Source of the DNA: Janthinobacterium silvisoli
GTDB lineage: Bacteria; Pseudomonadota; Gammaproteobacteria; Burkholderiales; Burkholderiaceae_D
Reading direction: 5' to 3'
Assembly (NCBI RefSeq): GCF_014200725.1
Contig: NZ_JACHCL010000006.1
Coordinates: 62,001-126,000 of the forward strand
DNA length: 64,000 nt
Shown here piece by piece: positions 50,832 through 60,700 of the stretch. Positions within the stretch are counted from its first letter, which is position 1; every line of letters starts with the position of its first letter. A program made the position numbers and the translations under genes. Under the pieces are notes generated by a model that did not search any database, was not told the DNA's origin, and worked only from the letters and a program-made list of their open reading frames with translations.

Positions 50832-51638
50832 CTAGAACAGCTCGCACAAGCCGACGCATTCCGTCATCGCCAGCGGCCTACGTATTATCAGCAGCGCTGC
50901 TGCCAGGGAAGGATCAAGGTCGGCATCAGCGCCGGCTATACTGTTTAGCAAGAACTGACGCAGGAACGGCGGCATCAGGCGGGCATGCGCTACGGCATGC
51001 TCTGCCGCCGCCTCCAGCAGCACTTTCTTTTGTTGCACGTTCCAATGAGGTCCGTTAACAGACTGCACCACGCCGCTATAAGCCACGATCGAGCTTTTGA
51101 CGAAGTCGCGTACACGCAAAGATTGGCTAACGCTCATCTCCTGTGTTTGCCTGGGAACGAACTCGGCTTCCATCAAGCCGATCAGATGCGCATTGCAATG
51201 CAGGCCAAACGCAATGAAGGCACTGATTTCATCGCCAAAGTCTTCTAACAGTGCGGCTTGTAGCTGCTCTGGCTGCGTGCCGGCAAATGGCCGGGGATGC
51301 TTGACATGGAAGTCGTAATACATTTTGGCGAGGTCATTGACCTGATCGCAAATGGCCGTACTCTGCGCTACATTTTTCAGCGCGGTATCAGACGCCTGGT
51401 AAAAAATCTGTCCATCCGTCAGGCGTGCAAACAAGGCAGCCACATCAGGATCGTACATGCGCGGCATCCGGCCTTGCTCCATTGCCGCCGACGCCAGGGC
51501 ACGAAACCGGGCGCTATCGTCCTGATAATCTCTCAAACTATCTGCCCAGGCGGCTGGCGCAATGAACGCAGCCACAAGACAAAGCAGGCGACCGATGCGG
51601 CGCACCGGCAAAGCAATCAATTCATTCATGGCATCCAT
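50832..51638 (-). CDS. Secreted alpha-helical protein of unknown function
   Basis: A 268-residue protein started at the ATG at 51638 (MDAMNELIALPVRR), with a signal peptide ending LVAAFIAPAAWA. The mature part is largely helical with no motif I recognise. The frame stays open for a further 64 codons upstream, through an 8-C run, but that segment is unlikely to be coding. An alternative ATG is at 51629. Confidence 0.62.
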   Translation of the reverse strand: MDAMNELIALPVRRIGRLLCLVAAFIAPAAWADSLRDYQDDSARFRALASAAMEQGRMPRMYDPDVAALFARLTDGQIFYQASDTALKNVAQSTAICDQVNDLAKMYYDFHVKHPRPFAGTQPEQLQAALLEDFGDEISAFIAFGLHCNAHLIGLMEAEFVPRQTQEMSVSQSLRVRDFVKSSIVAYSGVVQSVNGPHWNVQQKKVLLEAAAEHAVAHARLMPPFLRQFLLNSIAGADADLDPSLAAALLIIRRPLAMTECVGLCELF

Positions 51639-51957
51639 CTTTAATCGAAACAAGACATAGCAACTCAGGCTGCCCGATGCAGCCGGAACGGGTGGGCCGC
51701 CATATAGAACAGGCCCAGCGATTACCCTGGCAGACGATGGCAAAGCTGCCCCCCCCAGTTTAATCGGCAGCATCAATATGCCGGTCGCCAACACCGGTGA
51801 GATAAAGAATAATTTTGCCAGACACAGCAAGAAAAACGATCAGGCTGCAACAGCCCAGGCTACGCTTCAAAGTGTGCAATGGTGGGATTGGTGCCAAGGA
51901 AGTTAAATAATTTGCAATTATGGATTAAATATATCCACAGGGCAATAAAATCATCTT
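51639..51957. other. 319-bp intergenic stretch with an 8-C homopolymer
   Basis: No gene with a supporting start. Eight consecutive C residues lie at 51749-51756 and an AT-rich section at 51895-51945. The run sits in the upstream open extension of the secreted-protein gene, so length changes would shift that frame. Confidence 0.4.
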
Positions 51958-52536
51958 CTAGCGGATGATCGTCAGTCGAGGCCAGCGCTGCACATCATAT
52001 TTCTCGACTAGTCGCCTGGCGTAACCGTCCGCACTAATGCGTACTGGATTGTGCCGTACCAACATATTGAATAAATCATCCAGACCATACGGTGCGATAA
52101 TATTAATATTGCCGTTAGCTTCCAGATAAACACCAACCGCCGTCGCATAGTCCGGCCAGGAAGCAATGGCATCCTCCAGCGACAGCAAGGGCGATACGGC
52201 ATAGCCGAAATAGGCTTCGAACCACAAATGTACGCCAGCCTGATTGCACACTTCCCACGGCATTCCAGGCGAGAGCATTTCCAGGCGTTCACGCAACTGT
52301 GTTTCACACTGCGGCTGTAGATTGCCAGCATCAAAATAGGCAACATCAATATCGCTGAGGGCCGACGGTACTTCAAAGCCGTGCAAGGCATCCCACACCA
52401 GATTGCGCACGGCCCCCGCGCCGATGCAGCAGGAAGGCAGGTCTAATTGTGCAACGGCTTGCAAAGCCCGCATGAACCAGGGGGTATCGTTGACCAGACT
52501 GCGCAGGCGCTCGGCCAATGCTTCCTGGGTAGTCAA
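51958..52536 (-). CDS. Nucleotidyltransferase-fold family protein
   Basis: A 192-residue protein resembling the nucleotidyltransferase family PF06042. The motif GAGAVRNLVWDALHG followed by LSDIDVAYFD provides the strand and acidic pair (D-x-D) expected to bind metal. The start appears to be a TTG at 52536, three bases after the stop of the DUF4424 gene; no ATG is available near the N-terminus, so translation is probably coupled. GC content is lower than in neighbours. Substrate unknown. Confidence 0.75.
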   Translation of the reverse strand: MTTQEALAERLRSLVNDTPWFMRALQAVAQLDLPSCCIGAGAVRNLVWDALHGFEVPSALSDIDVAYFDAGNLQPQCETQLRERLEMLSPGMPWEVCNQAGVHLWFEAYFGYAVSPLLSLEDAIASWPDYATAVGVYLEANGNINIIAPYGLDDLFNMLVRHNPVRISADGYARRLVEKYDVQRWPRLTIIR

Positions 52537-52539
52537 ACG

Positions 52540-53493
52540 TTATGGCCTGATAACAGGCGCCACGCCGCCATGCTGGCCCATGCCTGCGACATTACCAAAA
52601 TACACATCCAGATCCTGCCGGGGCCGGAAATGACGCAGCCTGACTTGCAAGGTAGTGGGATTGATCCTGGTAAATGTGCCGGGAAAGCACAGGCTGACCA
52701 ATTCGTCGGGCTTGCCCTTGATCAGGTTCAAGGTAAAGTCTTCGATGCCATTCTTCCAGGTGTTACCGGTCGTCAAAATATAAGAGACGGCCACGGCATT
52801 GACCACACCGTTCTCACCGGCCCTGGCGGCCAGGCGCTGCCAGGTTTTCTGGAAGCCCTGATCGGTGCAGTATTTCTTTTCAAACTCTTTGTCATCGCCC
52901 AGGTAAGTAGCGGCGCTACCAGCCGCGACAAACGGCGCATATTGGTGGCGCACCCATACGACTTTACCGGCGGGGAATTTCTGCTGCCACAGGTAAATGA
53001 CTTTCACCGTCCAGGCTGGCACCCATTCTTCGTCGTAGAGCTGGCCCAGCAGGCCCTCCTTGATCATGGCCGCGCGCTGGGACTCGCTCAAGGGCGCGAT
53101 CTTTTTATCGAATGGCGTGTGCGAGGGGAAGTAGGCAATTTGCGGGTCCGTCAAGCCCAGTGCACGCAAACGCGCCGTCACATCCTTGCCATCGACCTCG
53201 ACGGAGAACTGCTGCGGCTGGCCATAATACGTGGGTGAGCCGTGGTAGCCGGCCGCGTATTCGGGCAAGGGGAAGAAGATGGTTTCTTCCACATCCTTGC
53301 CTGACTCGTTCAGGAACTCGTAGTCCACCTTGATCAAATCGGCGCTCACGCTGAGCACTTCCTTTTTCATGGCCACGGCGTCCGTCTTGCCAAACACGAT
53401 GCCGCCCGCGCTTTGGGCGGCGATACCGTCGTTGGCCAAGGCTGGCGCGGCAAACAGCAACGCCAGTGTGGCCACCAAGGTGCGCACGCCCAT
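52540..53493 (-). CDS. DUF4424 secreted protein
   Basis: A 317-residue exported protein (signal peptide TLVATLALLFAAPALA). The mature part matches DUF4424: VDYEFLNESGKDVEETIFFPLPEYAAGYHG, PFDKKIAPLSESQ, and FPAGKVVWVRHQYAPFVAAGS. Function unknown. Its ATG at 53493 lies inside the SMC stop (TGATG), so it is translationally coupled to a cytoplasmic condensin-like gene even though it is exported, an odd pairing. Confidence 0.82.
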   Translation of the reverse strand: MGVRTLVATLALLFAAPALANDGIAAQSAGGIVFGKTDAVAMKKEVLSVSADLIKVDYEFLNESGKDVEETIFFPLPEYAAGYHGSPTYYGQPQQFSVEVDGKDVTARLRALGLTDPQIAYFPSHTPFDKKIAPLSESQRAAMIKEGLLGQLYDEEWVPAWTVKVIYLWQQKFPAGKVVWVRHQYAPFVAAGSAATYLGDDKEFEKKYCTDQGFQKTWQRLAARAGENGVVNAVAVSYILTTGNTWKNGIEDFTLNLIKGKPDELVSLCFPGTFTRINPTTLQVRLRHFRPRQDLDVYFGNVAGMGQHGGVAPVIRP

Positions 53494-56324
53494 CAGGCGG
53501 CCTTGCCCGATGCCGGCTCCTGGCGGCGCTGCAAGACGAAAATCGGCTGCGCCCATTGCGTATCCTTTTTCTTCTTGCTGGTGATCAGGGTCAGCTCCGA
53601 CGGGTCATACACATCCGTATTGTGCGTCAGCGGCGTGGTCATCAGATACTGCGCTTCCGTATTTTTCAGGAACTCGCCCACCAGCTGGATGTTGCGGATG
53701 TCGAGGTGGGCAAACGGTTCGTCGATAAAGACAAAGCCGCCGGAACCATCTTCCGACTTCAGCAAACCGATCAGCAGCACCAAGGATTTCATGACTTGCT
53801 GGCCGCCCGATGCCTCGCCATCGTTCATGCCGATCACGCCCTTGCCATCGAACTTGAAGCGCACGTGCAAGCCTGCCTGCGACAGCTGCACATCGTCGTT
53901 TTCCAGGCGTACGGGGTCGGCATGCACTTCGATACCGGCCAGTTCGCCCAGCTCCTTGATGTTCTTGCTGTAAGTCTTGATGGTGTAGCGCAAGCGCTCC
54001 ATATAAGCGCCACGGGCATTGCCGGTCGCTTCGATGGCGCGGTTGTTCTGGTAGCGGCGCTCATCGGTTTCCGACTGGCGGCCATGCAATTGGTCCGACA
54101 GGCGGTGATGCTGGTCGATCACGGTGGCGTCCAGCTCCCAGTCGTCGCGCGCCAGGCTGCTTTGCAGGCTGGCCACGCGCAGGTCGACTTGGTGCGAGTT
54201 TTGATGCTCGGCCACCAGCGCGGCGCGGCGCGACGGCCGGCGCCAGCTTTTCGGCAAGTGGCGCCAGGTGCGGCGCAAGGCCAGCAAGGCGCGTGCGTGT
54301 TCGGCGCGCTGCTCGATCTGCTTCTTGTAGCCCAGGCGCGAACCGGCTTCCGCTTCCGACAGGGCCAGGCGCGCGTTTTGCCACACGGTATCGGCACGCG
54401 TGCGCACCACGGTGGCGTTCTTGGTGAGATTTTGCAACTCACCCAGGCGGCTGCCCACCTCCAGGCGCTCTTCTTTCAAGGGCTTGGAATTGCGCAGCGC
54501 TTCGGCGAATTCTTCCTGGCGTGCGCTCAGTTCCTTGGCTGCGTCGACGCCGGCGATACGCGCCTTCAAGGCGCCCACTTCGGCTGCCAGTTTCGAAATC
54601 GCCAGGGTCAAGGTATCTTCCTGCGCTTCCAGGCCAGGCAGGGAGCGCAGCAGCGCTTCCAGGCGGCCGGTGCGGCCAGCCTGGCCAAACCGATAGCGCG
54701 AGGCTTCCACGAACAGCGAGCGCCCGCCGCGGCGTTCGCGGTGATACGCCTCGGGCGTAATCCACTCTTCATGGTTGCCCAGCTTGAAACCGGCTTCCAC
54801 GGAATCGACGCGGGCGATGCGCGACAATTGTTCGATCAGCCAGCTAGGCACGGGCGCGGAAAATTTGACGACCGCCAGCAGGCTTTCGTCTTTCGCCGTC
54901 GGCGCCGTGACCAGCTCGGGCACGATGAAGTGGCGATAGCGTTCTTTCTCGGCCAGACGATAGGCGGCGGCCGCATCCTTGGCCTTGTCCAGCAAGACGA
55001 CCGAAGCGTAACCACCGAGTACGCCTTCGACGGCGCCCTGCCAGCGGCTGTCCGTCACTTCGACGATATCGGACAGCATGGCGTGGGCGATGCCCGCGTC
55101 GCGCAGCGCACGGCGCATGCCGCGCACATTGTCCGGTTCCGGCATGGCCGTCTTGCCCTGCAGCGCGGCGATGGTCGCCTGCTCGCCGGCGATACGCGCC
55201 GACAAGGCATCGCGCTGCTGGCGTTGACGCAGCAAGTCCGCTTCCTTCTGTTCCAGCTGGGCCGCCACTTCGGCGATATCGCTGCCGGAGTCCGCCGCCA
55301 GCTTTTGCAGGCGTTCTTTTTGTTCCAGCAGGCTGTCGAGCGGCTTCAGTTTCGCATTGATCAGGGACAAACGGCTTTGCAGGCCGATCGATTCCTGTTC
55401 CAGCAGGGTTTCATTCATTTGCGCATCCGACAGCGCCTTCGCTTGCGCGGCCAGCGCATTGCGCTTTTCCGTCAGCTGCTGGTCGGCCTGGGCCATCGGC
55501 TTGCGCGTTTCACGCAACTGGCGGCTGGCGGTGGCGGCTTTTTCGCGCGCCTCGTGGTACTGCAAGCTGGGCAGCACTTCTTCGAGCAGGTTACGGCGCT
55601 CCTTGTGCAAGCCTTCCCATTGATGGTAATTGGCCACGCGCAGGCGCAAGCCTTCCAGATTGGTTTTCGACGCTTCCAGTTCCGTTTCGAAACGTTTCAG
55701 CTCTTCTTCCGTATCGCGCTGGTGGCGCTTGGCTTCATCGTAGGCGTCCAGCACTTCCTTGTCGCCAAACACCTGGAACACCAGGTCGAGCAGCTGGCGC
55801 GGCGCGTATTCGCACAATTTGTCCGTCTCGCCCTGCTCCAGCGCCAGCACTTTCGACATGGCCGGCGACAGACCGGCATTGGCCAGGCGCTTGCGGTAGT
55901 TTTCCACGCCCAGCCAGTCGTTGGCATCAGTGATGTCTTCGATCTGCACATTGCCCGGACGCATCAGATACTGGCGCTTCCAGTCGCCGCCATTCTTCTG
56001 GATCTGGCAAAACAAGGTCACTTCATCATCGCTGAAGAAGCCGGAGCTGCGGAACGGACGGTTCGACAGCTGCTTGCCCATATTCTTGTTGTCGACCACG
56101 GCGCGCAGCCAGGCCGTCTGCTGGCCCGAATGGCGCGCATAGTGCTTGTACGTGCGGCCCATCGAGCAGTCGAGGCCGAACAGGGTGCGCAGCGCGTCGA
56201 GCAAGGTGGTCTTGCCTGAACCGTTCTGGCCCGCGATGGTAATGATCTTCGCGTCGAGCGGAATATTCTTGATGCGCTGCCAGTAATCCCAGTGCACCAG
56301 TTCAAGTGATTTGATATGAAACAT
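53493..56324 (-). CDS. SMC-like ATPase of MksB/JetC type
   Basis: A 943-residue condensin-like ATPase. The head halves are at the two ends: Walker A GQNGSGKTT (32-40) and, at the C-terminus, a signature-like EASGGQQ (837-843) and Walker B FVFIDEPFAHLD with Asp868-Glu869. Between them are long coiled coils and a hinge-like segment (about 395-545; GIAHAMLSDIVEVTDSRWQGAVEGVLGG). It is shorter than typical MksB or MukB. The genes just upstream encode the kite- and kleisin-like partners, so it probably entraps DNA as part of a trimeric SMC complex. Residues 686-700 look locally frameshifted (see findings). Confidence 0.87.
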   Translation of the reverse strand: MFHIKSLELVHWDYWQRIKNIPLDAKIITIAGQNGSGKTTLLDALRTLFGLDCSMGRTYKHYARHSGQQTAWLRAVVDNKNMGKQLSNRPFRSSGFFSDDEVTLFCQIQKNGGDWKRQYLMRPGNVQIEDITDANDWLGVENYRKRLANAGLSPAMSKVLALEQGETDKLCEYAPRQLLDLVFQVFGDKEVLDAYDEAKRHQRDTEEELKRFETELEASKTNLEGLRLRVANYHQWEGLHKERRNLLEEVLPSLQYHEAREKAATASRQLRETRKPMAQADQQLTEKRNALAAQAKALSDAQMNETLLEQESIGLQSRLSLINAKLKPLDSLLEQKERLQKLAADSGSDIAEVAAQLEQKEADLLRQRQQRDALSARIAGEQATIAALQGKTAMPEPDNVRGMRRALRDAGIAHAMLSDIVEVTDSRWQGAVEGVLGGYASVVLLDKAKDAAAAYRLAEKERYRHFIVPELVTAPTAKDESLLAVVKFSAPVPSWLIEQLSRIARVDSVEAGFKLGNHEEWITPEAYHRERRGGRSLFVEASRYRFGQAGRTGRLEALLRSLPGLEAQEDTLTLAISKLAAEVGALKARIAGVDAAKELSARQEEFAEALRNSKPLKEERLEVGSRLGELQNLTKNATVVRTRADTVWQNARLALSEAEAGSRLGYKKQIEQRAEHARALLALRRTWRHLPKSWRRPSRRAALVAEHQNSHQVDLRVASLQSSLARDDWELDATVIDQHHRLSDQLHGRQSETDERRYQNNRAIEATGNARGAYMERLRYTIKTYSKNIKELGELAGIEVHADPVRLENDDVQLSQAGLHVRFKFDGKGVIGMNDGEASGGQQVMKSLVLLIGLLKSEDGSGGFVFIDEPFAHLDIRNIQLVGEFLKNTEAQYLMTTPLTHNTDVYDPSELTLITSKKKKDTQWAQPIFVLQRRQEPASGKAA

Positions 56325-56332
56325 GGGCGCTT

Positions 56333-57052
56333 TCAGTGAGGGATGTCGGACGAGGTGTCATCGTCGGTATCGACGGCGAGGTCGGCGTCCGCGTCGAGCA
56401 GCGGATCGCCGACTGCCACCAGGCGGGCCGGCGCGCGCTTGAACACGTCGGCCAGCGCGCCATTGATGATGCGTTCCTTGAGCACGTCGGTATCCATCAT
56501 CAGGTCCAGCAGCGGGCCTTCGAGCAGCACGTCGCCGCGCCGTTCGATAAAGCCCAGCTTGGCCAGCGTGCCCAGGTTCATGTCCATGCGCGTCTTCTTG
56601 CCCAGCTTGTCGCCGAAGTCCGACAGCAGCGCCTTGTAGGAAATGCCGATCGAGGTATCTTCCGCGCGCGGCAGCGGCTTTTCGGTGCCGAACATATCGT
56701 TCTGGTCATCGTCTGCATGCTGGTGCGTTTCCTGGCGTTCGCGCTTGGGCAGGATGATCTGCGCCCACAGCACCACCAGCAAGGCCACGCCATCGCGGGC
56801 CAGGCCAAAATTATTGTTTTGCCAGACATCGCGCGCGCCGAAAATCTTCGGTTCGATGGTGCGCGTCAGGGCCAGGGTCACATGGTCGGCGTAGACGTTG
56901 TCGAGCAGTTTCAGGCCGCAGGCGAGCAGGCGCGCATCGACTTCGGCGCGGAACAACTCGTCGGACAGCACGCGCTTGACCAGCTTCTCGTCGCGGCGCA
57001 GGGTTTGATGCGTGAGCAGGCGCGCAATCAGGATTTGGGAATCGTCATTCAT
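56333..57052 (-). CDS. Kite-like (MksE/JetB) subunit of SMC complex
   Basis: A 239-residue protein. Its N-terminal half (LIARLLTHQTLRRDEKLVKRVL, DVWQNNNFGLARDGVALLVVLWAQIILPKRE) resembles the winged-helix kite subunits MukE/MksE/JetB, and the C-terminal part has another winged-helix-like stretch (MNLGTLAKLGFIERRGDVLLEGPLLDLMMD) followed by an Asp-rich tail. It starts 8 bases inside the kleisin-like gene and ends 8 bases before the SMC gene, so all three are one operon. Assignment rests on position and pattern. Confidence 0.75.
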   Translation of the reverse strand: MNDDSQILIARLLTHQTLRRDEKLVKRVLSDELFRAEVDARLLACGLKLLDNVYADHVTLALTRTIEPKIFGARDVWQNNNFGLARDGVALLVVLWAQIILPKRERQETHQHADDDQNDMFGTEKPLPRAEDTSIGISYKALLSDFGDKLGKKTRMDMNLGTLAKLGFIERRGDVLLEGPLLDLMMDTDVLKERIINGALADVFKRAPARLVAVGDPLLDADADLAVDTDDDTSSDIPH

Positions 57053-58427
57053 CGGCTGGGCCGCTATCTAAATCAAGTGAAACATTCAGTGAAAGCGAGG
57101 CGATCGACATGGCTGCCACATGGGGGTCGGCCAGTTGGACCATCTCGTCGGTCGGTGTAAAGGTGATCGGCAAACGGGCCAGTTCGGCCGTCGCGCCCTG
57201 CAAGCTCGCTTCGGATACATCGCCCAAGAGCGGCAGCATCGAGGCGCGGTACGAGGCCACGGCAAAGCTGGCTGGCAGCAGCGAATCCTGCACCGGCACC
57301 GACTTCGGTCCCTCTTCGCCGATGCTGGGGAAATTGCCCAGGCTGGCGAAGTTCGACAGGCGTTCGAGCAAATCGTCGAGTTCGAGCTGCATGGCCGGGC
57401 CATCGCTGATGGTGGTCGGCGCATCTTCGCCGCTGGGCAAGCCCGTATTGGCCACGCCGGCCGCGCGCTCGGCCAACAATTCTGTTTCCGCCACGTCGAT
57501 CATTTCGGCTGGTGTCGAGAACAGCGGCACCACCGGCTGGTCGATGGCGCCTTCGGCCAGGCTCGCCAGGTCTTCATGCAACAGCAGCCAGCGCTTGATA
57601 TCGGTAGTCGACAAGCCCGACTGGCCCAGGTGCACGCGCTGGCGTTCGATCTGGTTCAGCGCGCGCGAGAACATGCCTTGCATATTAAGCAATTTACTTT
57701 GCGCGCGGCCGATCGCTTGCGCTGCCTTGTGGGTGGCGCCATCCGCGTTTTCATCCGACGTAATCGCCAGCAAGATTTCGGACCCTTTCTCTACCCAGTC
57801 GCACGCCATATTCCACTTCGCCTGCGCCGTGCGCAAGCGGAATTCGGAACCGGAAGCGATGGCGTCGGAAAATTCTTCCGTCAAATCCACCAGGCGCCCC
57901 AGCAAGTGCTGCAATTGCTCCACCGACACGCCGCCCACGGCTTGCGCGCCGGCCACCTGCGACAGCAAAAAGCCCATTTCAGCTTCATCTTCCGTCTGGC
58001 CCAGGCCCAGCAAGCTGTCGATGGCAGACAAGACATTGCGCGCCATCGGCGTCACGCGGTACACGCCCTGCTGTGCATCCCAGGCCAGCAACTGGTTGGA
58101 ACGCAAGCGCAGCAAGACCGTTTCCAGGCTTTCTGGCAACAGATACGCGAGTTTCTGGTTGATGTCGGCGCGCGTGTAAGCGGACGTGGCAACGTCGGCC
58201 GCCAGCTCGCGCAACACCAGCAAGCGCACCAGCACGCCGTCGAAACCGCCATGAAACAGGGCCGTAAACACTTGCAGCAGCGGCTGCGCCCGTTTCAAAT
58301 GGAATACCTGCTCGATTTCATCAGCTGAAATATTCGGCTGGAAATGCGCCTGCAAAGAATCGTGATGCTCTTGCTCTGTCTGATTTGCATCCGCAGCCAC
58401 GGCTGCACTTGCCATTATATCAATCAT
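57045..58427 (-). CDS. Kleisin-like (MksF/JetA) subunit of SMC complex
   Basis: A 460-residue, mostly helical protein. The N-terminal part (about 30-135) looks like a winged-helix domain (QPLLQVFTALFHGGFDGVLVRLLVLRELAADVATSAYTRADINQKLAYLLPESLETVLLRLRSNQLLAWDAQQGVYRVTPMARNVLSAID), followed by a long helical bundle and an acidic C-terminal region, the plan of MukF/MksF/JetA. It is the first gene of the operon. Starts ATG 58427 or ATG 58415; both have weak ribosome-binding sites. The JetA/MksF assignment is from gene order and fold pattern, not a search. Confidence 0.72.
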   Translation of the reverse strand: MIDIMASAAVAADANQTEQEHHDSLQAHFQPNISADEIEQVFHLKRAQPLLQVFTALFHGGFDGVLVRLLVLRELAADVATSAYTRADINQKLAYLLPESLETVLLRLRSNQLLAWDAQQGVYRVTPMARNVLSAIDSLLGLGQTEDEAEMGFLLSQVAGAQAVGGVSVEQLQHLLGRLVDLTEEFSDAIASGSEFRLRTAQAKWNMACDWVEKGSEILLAITSDENADGATHKAAQAIGRAQSKLLNMQGMFSRALNQIERQRVHLGQSGLSTTDIKRWLLLHEDLASLAEGAIDQPVVPLFSTPAEMIDVAETELLAERAAGVANTGLPSGEDAPTTISDGPAMQLELDDLLERLSNFASLGNFPSIGEEGPKSVPVQDSLLPASFAVASYRASMLPLLGDVSEASLQGATAELARLPITFTPTDEMVQLADPHVAAMSIASLSLNVSLDLDSGPADE

Positions 58428-58639: not shown

Positions 58640-59401
58640 TTACTTTTTAACGATCTTTTGCAAGGTCTGCTCGACATAATCGCCATCGACGTCGGCAAAC
58701 GTCACTTTCACGGGGTACCATTCCAGCGATGGCGCCAGCCACAGGTCTACCTGCTGGCCCTGCTTGTTCGGCGGCGGCGCCTTGATTAGATGCAAAGCCG
58801 TGACGTCGCCCTGGCCGGTAGCCACGGTTTCTTCCTTGATCACCTTGAAAGTCCATGGCTCGGCGTCGCGGCGGCCAGCCACAAAGAAGGTCCATTCGGA
58901 ACCGGGCACGAATTTTTCCGGTGCGGCGCGGGCCACGCTGACCAGTTGCCAGACGGTGCTGTTGCGGTCTTGCTCGCCGCCCTTGAGCGGGTAGCTGTCA
59001 TCGCCTTCGCTAAAGACGATGGTCTTGCTGTCGCGCTTGAAGGTGGTGGTCGCCGCATCCTGACGGAAACGCTTTTCCACGAATTGCGACGGCGCCAGGC
59101 CAAAATCATCGACCGCGCCATCGCTGCGCTGTTCCAGGATCTTGCCAAACAGGGCCACCTTGGTTTCCGCCAGCAGTGAATACTTGCCATCGCCGGCACG
59201 CCAGGCGCTGACCGACTCGCCTGCCAGGGCAATGCCGCGCTGCTTGGCCTTGATCGTGTAGCTCAGGTCGGCCGATGGCGCCAGCTTGAAGGCGCGCTTG
59301 ATCACGGGGTGGTCGACTGGTGCATCCGCCATGGCGGGCGCCATGGTCGCAGCCAGCAAACCGGCTGCCAGCAAATGTTTAAAAGGGGTCAAAGGTTTCA
59401 T
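58640..59401 (-). CDS. DUF3108 periplasmic protein
   Basis: A 253-residue exported protein (signal peptide HLLAAGLLAATMAPAMA). The mature part has DUF3108 features: SADLSYTIKAKQRGIALAGES, then KVALFGKILEQRSDGAVDDFGLAPSQFVEKR and a closing VDLWLAPSLEWYPVKVTF. Function unknown; the fold is thought to be a beta-barrel-like periplasmic domain. Its ATG overlaps the stop of the upstream DUF3108 gene (ATGA), and the two share the WLAPSLxWYPV motif, which indicates ancient duplication. Confidence 0.82.
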   Translation of the reverse strand: MKPLTPFKHLLAAGLLAATMAPAMADAPVDHPVIKRAFKLAPSADLSYTIKAKQRGIALAGESVSAWRAGDGKYSLLAETKVALFGKILEQRSDGAVDDFGLAPSQFVEKRFRQDAATTTFKRDSKTIVFSEGDDSYPLKGGEQDRNSTVWQLVSVARAAPEKFVPGSEWTFFVAGRRDAEPWTFKVIKEETVATGQGDVTALHLIKAPPPNKQGQQVDLWLAPSLEWYPVKVTFADVDGDYVEQTLQKIVKK

Positions 59402-60537
59402 TTATTTTCCTGTTGCATAGTTGTCGAGGGCGCAGCGACGGTAATTTTGGAGACGGTTTGCGTGGTCAGCGCGCCGCTCGCTTCAGTATTGCGTATTTGT
59501 ACCGGATACCATTGCAAGGACGGCGCCAGCCAGATATCGAGCTGCGACGAATACGAACCCGGTTTCGGTGGCCGGCTCAGATGCCAGGTCACCAGGCGGC
59601 CCATCTTCGTTTCAATCTCTTCCTCACCTACCAGCTTGAAGCGGAACACGGTTGCATCAGCCTCTTCGCCGACCAGGATATCGATATTGCCGGCCAGCTG
59701 ATTGACGTCGCCGCGGCCGATGGCGGCCAGCTGGAACGGCACGCTGGCCTTGTCCTGGGCCCCTGGCAGCCAGGGCACGGAAGCGGTGCTGGCCGAAAAC
59801 GTGATGGTTTTCTGTGCTGCATTGAAATGCGTGGCCGTCTGCGAACGGCCCTTGCGTTTTTCCGTCGCCGTGACGGGCACGATACCGCTGTCGTCAATGA
59901 TACCTGTACTGGTCAACACCAGCAGATTGATGCGTGTAATGAGCATGCTCAAGCCCACTTCCAGCTTCAATTGGTAGTTGTCCCCCTTATTTTGCCATGA
60001 CATGGCTGCCACGCCTGTCCATTTGGTGCCATCGGCGTCACGCCGGTCCACCTGCATGTCAAATTCGGCCGACGCGGGCACGTTGATCTTGTAGTGCAGC
60101 GGCGCAGCCGGTGGTGGTAGTGCCGGCGCGGGCGCCGGCTCAGGCGCAGCCGCCGCTTGTGGCGGCGCTGCCGGAATGACCGCTGCAGCTGGCGGCGCCA
60201 CGGGGCCTTCGGGCACATCGCTGGGCGGCGCCGTCAATTCAGCCGCCACGCTCGATGGCAGCGGTACTTCCAGCGGCGGCGGTGGTGGTGGCGGCCTTCG
60301 CTCGGCTTGCGGCTTGCGCCTCGGCGGCGGCGGCGGCGGTGCAGGCGCGACGGGCAAGGGCTTGGGTGGTGCGGCGATCAATTCCATGTCCACCACACGC
60401 GTAACGTCCTGCGCTGGACGTGTCATGCCAGCGTGCGAATTGAGCCAGTCGAGCGCCAGCACGTGCAGCAGCACGATCACGACGATAAAAACAACGGTGC
60501 GGCGGCGCGGCGGCGAAAAGAAAGGGGCGGGCGTCAT
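59398..60537 (-). CDS. Membrane-anchored, proline-rich DUF3108 protein (TonB-like N-terminus)
   Basis: A 379-residue protein. One N-terminal membrane helix (TVVFIVVIVLLHVLALDWL) is followed by a long proline-rich stretch (VAPAPPPPPPRRKPQAERR and PPPPPPPLEVPLP segments, about 60-165) and a C-terminal DUF3108 domain (about 175-379) ending WLAPSLQWYPVQI. The anchor plus proline-rich spacer resembles the layout of TonB, placing the C-terminal domain away from the inner membrane. The ATG at 60537 was preferred over an in-frame extension. It overlaps the second DUF3108 gene by 4 bases. Confidence 0.82.
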   Translation of the reverse strand: MTPAPFFSPPRRRTVVFIVVIVLLHVLALDWLNSHAGMTRPAQDVTRVVDMELIAAPPKPLPVAPAPPPPPPRRKPQAERRPPPPPPPLEVPLPSSVAAELTAPPSDVPEGPVAPPAAAVIPAAPPQAAAAPEPAPAPALPPPAAPLHYKINVPASAEFDMQVDRRDADGTKWTGVAAMSWQNKGDNYQLKLEVGLSMLITRINLLVLTSTGIIDDSGIVPVTATEKRKGRSQTATHFNAAQKTITFSASTASVPWLPGAQDKASVPFQLAAIGRGDVNQLAGNIDILVGEEADATVFRFKLVGEEEIETKMGRLVTWHLSRPPKPGSYSSQLDIWLAPSLQWYPVQIRNTEASGALTTQTVSKITVAAPSTTMQQENK

Positions 60538-60700
60538 GGCTGCTAGTGTAACGCCTCTTGCACTAATTCTGCCGCAGAGCGCCACGCTACAGATCAGCTT
60601 TTATGTAAGAAAATGTAGATGAAAAATGTACGCCAGATTGTGTCAGTTGCAAGCTGATATCTGCTAGGCTAAGGGTATAAACCTACCAGGAGACTACCGC

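Follow-up and report, generated by a model that had tools for sequence, protein, structure and literature searches.

Within the Muk/Mks/Jet superclass, the described systems closest to the locus considered here are Wadjet type I (JetABCD), MukBEF and MksBEF, the last reportedly named by Petrushenko et al. in 2011. This work concerns an operon encoding kleisin-like, kite-like and SMC proteins, carried by a stretch of 64,000 nt (hereafter the window) of contig C6 (NZ_JACHCL010000006.1) in the 5.9-Mb genome of Janthinobacterium silvisoli. With a probability of roughly 0.7, we read it as a member of a separate, mostly nuclease-less lineage of Wadjet/Mks-like condensins with a chromosomal role, perhaps linked to the replisome; it looks like a lineage of its own within the superclass, present mainly in the window's order. 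Such a reading bears on ancestry, as MukBEF and MksBEF are suggested to descend from Wadjet-like defence systems in a review, where their origin is called unresolved (PMC10586767).

All three genes lie on the minus strand, namely the kleisin gene (MukF/JetA-like, 460 aa) at 57045-58427, the kite gene (JetB/MukE-like, 239 aa) at 56333-57052 and the SMC ATPase gene (943 aa) at 53493-56324, the first two overlapping by 8 nt and the last two being separated by 8 nt. Besides the 80 loci retained as the best 80 of 186 matches in a scan with the kite profile, whose closest named relatives (first 19 rows) are Janthinobacterium with 86-92% identity in the best segment, 32 further loci were fetched; three belong to the same family and 29 to other families within the order or class. 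The arrangement is not a chance one: 31 of these 32 repeat it, with kleisin, kite and SMC in unchanged order and strand, the sole miss being a 4.6-kb contig that holds the kite gene alone.

Regarding the identity of the subunits, the SMC protein matches the Pfam family SMC_N with 50.8 bits (cut-off 40) and SMC_hinge with 18.7 bits, under the cut-off of 22.5. It displays a Walker A motif (GQNGSGKT), an SGGQ signature and a Walker B motif (FIDEP) in addition to a hinge region, and the columns of these three motifs are invariant in 18 diverse members of the family, apart from the position that follows the first G of Walker A. For the kleisin and the kite, Pfam, PADLOC and NCBIfam yielded no family at E<=1, and profiles of the two yielded no PDB sequence at E<=10; their assignment comes from low-confidence AlphaFold2 models searched with Foldseek, whose secondary structure is in keeping with the proposed roles. 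The kleisin model comprises an N-terminal winged helix, a middle part of long helices, a low-confidence linker and a small C-terminal winged helix; MukBEF, MukE-MukF or MukF entries supply the six top-ranked chains among its 518 PDB hits (best E 2.1e-3). The kite model is made of two winged helices, a long connecting helix and a low-confidence loop; JetABC-entry chains occupy its ranks 1-3 (best E 5.1e-4, with E<=0.001 reached by two hits), followed at ranks 4-11 by MAGE, Nse, MukBEF/MukE-MukF and ScpB entries. From chain lengths and entry titles, we infer that the matched chains are MukF and JetB or MukE, and a MukF/JetA-type kleisin and a JetB/MukE-type kite are thus probable on these models. 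As a separate Smc-like gene (1185 aa) is present in the host, the three-gene complex is probably its second condensin.

Aligned by hhalign, the SMC family matches seven JetC at 99.9% (E 8.5e-35), the alignment running through the hinge; at equal row numbers, three JetC give E 2e-20 vs. 96.8% and E 2.3e-10 for three MksB. In an SMC tree rooted on the host Smc and limited to the family, three MksB rows and nine JetC rows from Wadjet type I, the family forms one clade (support 97, a starred value) and JetC together with MksB the other side (92), the rows labelled JetC2 being type I according to PADLOC. Both this tree and a three-gene tree of 55 loci are quick trees with long-branch warnings, and one locus (L165) was left out of the trees and the neighbour listing as its contig has no SMC gene. 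Because of these long branches, an SMC clade outside the sampled JetC and MksB is a provisional placement; if it holds, the family would be a separate lineage.

These same data bear on a doubtful alternative, an ordinary Pseudomonas-type MksBEF that the reference models are too narrow to recognise. The shared gene order, the missing nuclease gene, an SMC length of 943 aa as in locus L210 and the above hhalign score against MksB would all fit it. Yet the Pfam model MksE misses the kite and finds nothing in the genome, the tree sets the family outside the MksB-JetC group, and hhalign gives the stronger match to JetC at equal row numbers. Two other loci (L220 and L224), type I Wadjet by PADLOC, have SMC proteins of 1217-1219 aa forming a distinct subgroup within JetC1, and positions 4728-10356 of L225 hold an SMC-like locus ordered SMC, kite-like and a third gene rather than F-E-B, in which the MksE model scores 28.3 bits.

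In the window's genome, neither the JetD_C profile nor a profile of the fourth gene described hereafter (A4, with at most 28 candidates scored per genome) found a JetD match. The lead to this fourth gene came from relatives, in which weak JetD_C matches stood behind the SMC gene together with a recurring neighbour of 393-425 aa. It proved to be a divergent JetD-like TOPRIM family, six members of which share the invariant motifs VEN...F, CD..PAG and K.EQE. In Pfam, one of the six matches both DUF2399 and JetD_C over cut-off, one DUF2399 and four neither; all six match PADLOC JetD1 models, with a best E per protein of 3.5e-10 to 2.3e-22, and hhalign of the JetD-like set against a single canonical JetD gave no signal. 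E236 and D279 are required for cutting by the Corynebacterium MksG (PMC10123090), and the invariant E and D of the fourth gene may by analogy be their equivalents.

With the A4 profile, the fourth gene was detected in 13 of the 64 genomes carrying the family; in 12, the fetched DNA shows it following the SMC gene, cut in one case by a contig end, and for the thirteenth (G081) the coordinates agree. The other 51 carriers, including the window's genome, gave no adequate A4 match, one of them (G274) being masked behind the SMC gene. A kleisin-kite-SMC condensin operon without a detectable JetD, as proposed in the preliminary description of the locus, is upheld by the low-confidence fold rankings, the SMC match and the JetD searches; the absence of JetD stands for the window's genome and for most carriers and falls as a trait of the whole family. 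Eight carriers, listed as G305, G255 (two), G068, G285, G113, G367 and G092, have a strong JetD_C match (E <1e-48) away from the condensin locus, presumably part of an ordinary Wadjet system. In another genome, the JetD-like gene is in two pieces on two contigs (L228, i.e. G167:C59, and G167:C171), one of them at a contig end. An apparent SMC fusion of 2557 aa in L146 was discarded as the artefact of a run of N.

Twelve fourth-gene proteins form one clade apart from seven canonical JetD (support 100/100). Over 11 loci, the partial L228 being left out, the distances between pairs of these proteins rise and fall with the corresponding kleisin, kite and SMC distances (r of 0.96, 0.95 and 0.95, respectively; Mantel p of 0.0002 for the fourth gene vs. 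SMC), four of these loci being near-identical and inflating r; they are also as deep, with a mean of 0.55 vs. 0.42-0.50 for the other three. Such correlated and equally deep distances argue for joint descent of the four genes. On the three-gene tree, the presence of the fourth gene needs five changes. It stands between the SMC gene and a lysS-like gene in L153 and L232, and is missing from L154, the sister of the nuclease-bearing L152, in which the lysS-like gene follows the SMC gene after 67 nt; L148 likewise lacks it where its sister group has one, with shared genes further down. In L232, two small genes, antitoxin-toxin-like by eye, separate the JetD-like gene from lysS, and a Pfam query there matched an OB-fold (tRNA_anti-codon), probably lysS itself; the names obg, lysS and antitoxin-toxin were all assigned by eye.

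From these patterns, we infer an armed ancestor and repeated loss of the nuclease. The armed ancestry of the window's own clade depends on the root, as no armed member is among its rows and the gene may have been absent from the start; for the obg group, a regain confined to one genus would take fewer steps than numerous losses. A lineage ancestrally armed with a JetD-like nuclease, repeatedly disarmed in Burkholderiales and kin, and tethered to the replisome by its kite through the sliding clamp is, as a whole, a tentative proposal.

The suggested link to the replisome comes from the kite. A motif Q-x-D-M-F is found in the variable, low-confidence loop between its winged helices, in the form QNDMF at residues 117-121 in the window (56690-56704, minus strand; 118690-118704 of contig C6), and constitutes a putative sliding-clamp-binding motif. 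Among 125 aligned kites, Q and F are present in 125 and the pattern Q.[DSE][MLI]F in 122. In the 44 kites from L135 on, Q117, D119, M120 and F121 are 86-100% conserved, the next G 75% and K125-P126 93-95%, vs. 27-55% for positions 111-116, 118, 123 and 124. Shuffled linkers yield the pattern at a frequency of 0.26%, and it occurs in none of the seven JetB and three MksE; the SMC protein of one of the three MksB rows also contains it, hence it is not unique to kites. Clamp-binding motifs are given as QL[S/D]LF, revised to Q-aliphatic-x-[L/M]-[F/L], with QADMF in E. coli Pol III (PMC13254535), and another source describes CrfC as a clamp-binding nucleoid-partition protein of E. coli (PMC6374313). 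Of the two DnaE-like frames retrieved from the host by family search, that of 1197 aa has QVSLF. A QADMF match in the host DNA, expected to be DnaE, turned out to lie in a plus-strand ORF that runs antisense to a peptidase-like gene; of the other DNA matches, QFDMF is in an ORF likewise antisense to a gene, here an aminopeptidase-like one, and QQDMF is inside a 674-aa ORF. No report of a clamp-bound SMC complex appeared in the titles and abstract beginnings of the literature searched, mostly without subscription papers.

Since the cutting subunit is missing and the motor is kept, the complex would use ATP to translocate DNA or extrude loops on the chromosome instead of restricting plasmids. 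The kite loop, by a weaker line of reasoning, might hook it to the DNA sliding clamp and so direct its action to newly replicated DNA.

The distribution of the genes is consistent with this chromosomal role. The kleisin is found in 35 of the 36 other genomes of the genus, one as a fragment only, and the kite profile in 62 genomes of the order, out of a draw of 399, and in six of the phylum, out of a draw of 398, all in the same class and with the window's own genome counted in both. The SMC turned up in two of 72,556 plasmid records and the kite in one, all from Variovorax and typed as non-mobilizable. As the SMC is annotated in the two plasmid records matched as 'AAA family ATPase' or 'ATP-binding protein / hypothetical protein', and kleisin and kite match no curated model, the system may be overlooked by present annotation. 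Upstream of the kleisin gene, DUF3108 is a steadier neighbour, occurring in 77 of the best 80 loci at a distance of 5 to ~5,900 bases, and is represented in the window by two adjacent genes matched in Pfam (58640-59401 and 59398-60585, minus strand), probably a tandem duplication. Of 41 fetched loci holding the full trio, 22 have an obg-like gene upstream in the DNA retrieved. Between the window and six relatives, dN/dS amounts to 0.03-0.10 for kleisin, 0.08-0.18 for kite and 0.03-0.09 for SMC, values that point to strong purifying selection on all three. Given the conserved order and strand, the rarity on plasmids and the upstream neighbours (obg-like and DUF3108), we take the pattern, as far as sequence data go, to indicate a settled chromosomal gene set rather than a defence island.

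An alternative is a role in plasmid or phage defence, in which the subunits would sense DNA shape like JetABC and either recruit a distant nuclease or interfere without cutting. Plasmids also use the host sliding clamp, which makes the kite motif compatible with such a role; the JetD-like gene behind the SMC gene in a part of the carriers means that the family has a nuclease-bearing form, and the best PADLOC matches of the SMC are JetC models, JetC1 weakly. Defence is nevertheless unlikely for the window, considering that its genome has no JetD-like match, that purifying selection is strong, and that the kleisin is nearly constant in the genus, in contrast to the patchy spread reported for MksG (PMC10123090).

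A number of observations count against the chromosomal, replisome-linked condensin proposed here. The structural models have a pLDDT of 56.8 for the kleisin and 59.0 for the kite; no PDB hit of the kleisin reaches E<=0.001, the TM-scores of the cited Foldseek hits are 0.16-0.34 over the query, and hhalign gave no signal for the kleisin against the sampled JetA and one MksF or for the kite against JetB and MksE. The complex could also work with a nuclease from another locus that does not resemble JetD. As for the clamp, the motif was spotted in the alignment before being tested, N, S and T prevail at its position 2 (80 of 125 kites have N) instead of an aliphatic residue, and the revised consensus quoted in PMC13254535 is matched at this position in 5 of 125 only (QADMF in four, QADLF in one); besides, the 1066-aa DnaE-like protein of the host contains no match to Q..[LMIF]F.

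Downstream of the SMC gene, the five-gene layout first described was confirmed in its coordinates, sizes and junctions, all on the minus strand. The stop codon of the SMC gene and the start of a DUF4424 gene (52540-53493, 317 aa from that start) overlap in TGATG, and an alternative DUF4424 ORF of 338 aa starts inside the SMC gene, the Pfam match (E 1.4e-60) having been obtained with the longer ORF. Between the TAA stop of DUF4424 and the TTG start of a nucleotidyltransferase gene (NTP_transf_6, Pfam E 7.5e-52; 51958-52536) there is a gap of 3 nt, CGT. Further down, a 332-aa protein encoded at 50832-51830 in the window has no Pfam match at E<=1 and recurs downstream of the operon in part of the Janthinobacterium loci.

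These tight junctions are what speaks for the five genes being one functional unit, with the DUF4424 and nucleotidyltransferase proteins working with the condensin, and the preliminary description had accordingly coupled the two genes to the operon. The neighbourhood survey it had suggested was run on the 77 of the best 80 loci in which 1 kb or more follows the SMC gene (L033, L052 and L061 being dropped with less), and the coupling did not survive it. DUF4424 stands directly behind the SMC gene in 18 loci, all named Janthinobacterium and making up 18 of the 21 so named (L026 and L045 have none, and in L049 it is 1.46 kb away), vs. none of the 56 loci not so named; the nucleotidyltransferase is behind the operon in 10 of the 77. 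Within this set, the coupling is limited to Janthinobacterium and uneven even there. Neither was found at >40 bits in the 31 further loci, L146 being masked behind the SMC gene. The DUF4424 protein has a signal peptide, judged by eye, and its gene evolves faster than those of the operon (dN/dS of 0.15-0.25); the nucleotidyltransferase shows 0.12 in two pairs, with saturated dS. The crystal structure of a Legionella member of DUF4424 is a beta-sandwich, for which the authors offer a role as a hypothesis (PMC3848476). A partnership within one functional unit is thus highly improbable and was rejected on the survey; the pair looks, from these comparisons, like something added in one lineage and evolving at a rate of its own, and its members are probably merely co-transcribed neighbours.

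What appears new here is the probable separate lineage, its armed relatives and the kite motif. If the combined proposal of an armed, later disarmed and clamp-tethered lineage is true, it would show directly how a DNA-defence machine became a chromosome organiser; since loci with and without the JetD-like gene sit together on a single tree, and sister loci differ in it between the same flanking genes, nuclease loss and change of role become directly testable. The kite motif in turn predicts binding to DnaN and, if this is true, would link such a condensin to replication.

Compared with known systems, the locus shares with Wadjet type I the kleisin-kite-SMC order, the subunit types being taken from low-confidence models, kite fold matches led by JetABC, an SMC nearer to JetC than to MksB by hhalign and, in 13 of 64 family carriers, an SMC gene followed by a JetD1-like TOPRIM gene. 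It differs in having no JetD match in the window's genome, a kleisin and a kite matched by neither DUF3375 nor DUF4194, and an SMC of 943 aa whose best PADLOC JetC match is 3.6e-19, vs. <=1e-198 for the best JetC1 model with the seven reference JetC (two of the nine JetC rows of the tree being unscanned). With MksBEF of the Pseudomonas type, it has in common three genes in F-E-B order, no nuclease and an Smc gene also present in the host, and differs by the kite that MksE misses and by an SMC outside the clade of three MksB. The resemblance to MukBEF is one of fold only, that of the best PDB matches of the kleisin model, whereas no MukF, MukE or MukB family match exceeds its cut-off (MukB N-terminal, 15.2 bits for a cut-off of 23) and the window's host has an Smc-like gene. 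As for clamp-binding proteins such as DnaE, RecB and CrfC, the kite displays a Q-x-[DS]-[LM]-F resembling theirs, one host DnaE having QVSLF, and departs from them by a mostly polar position 2.

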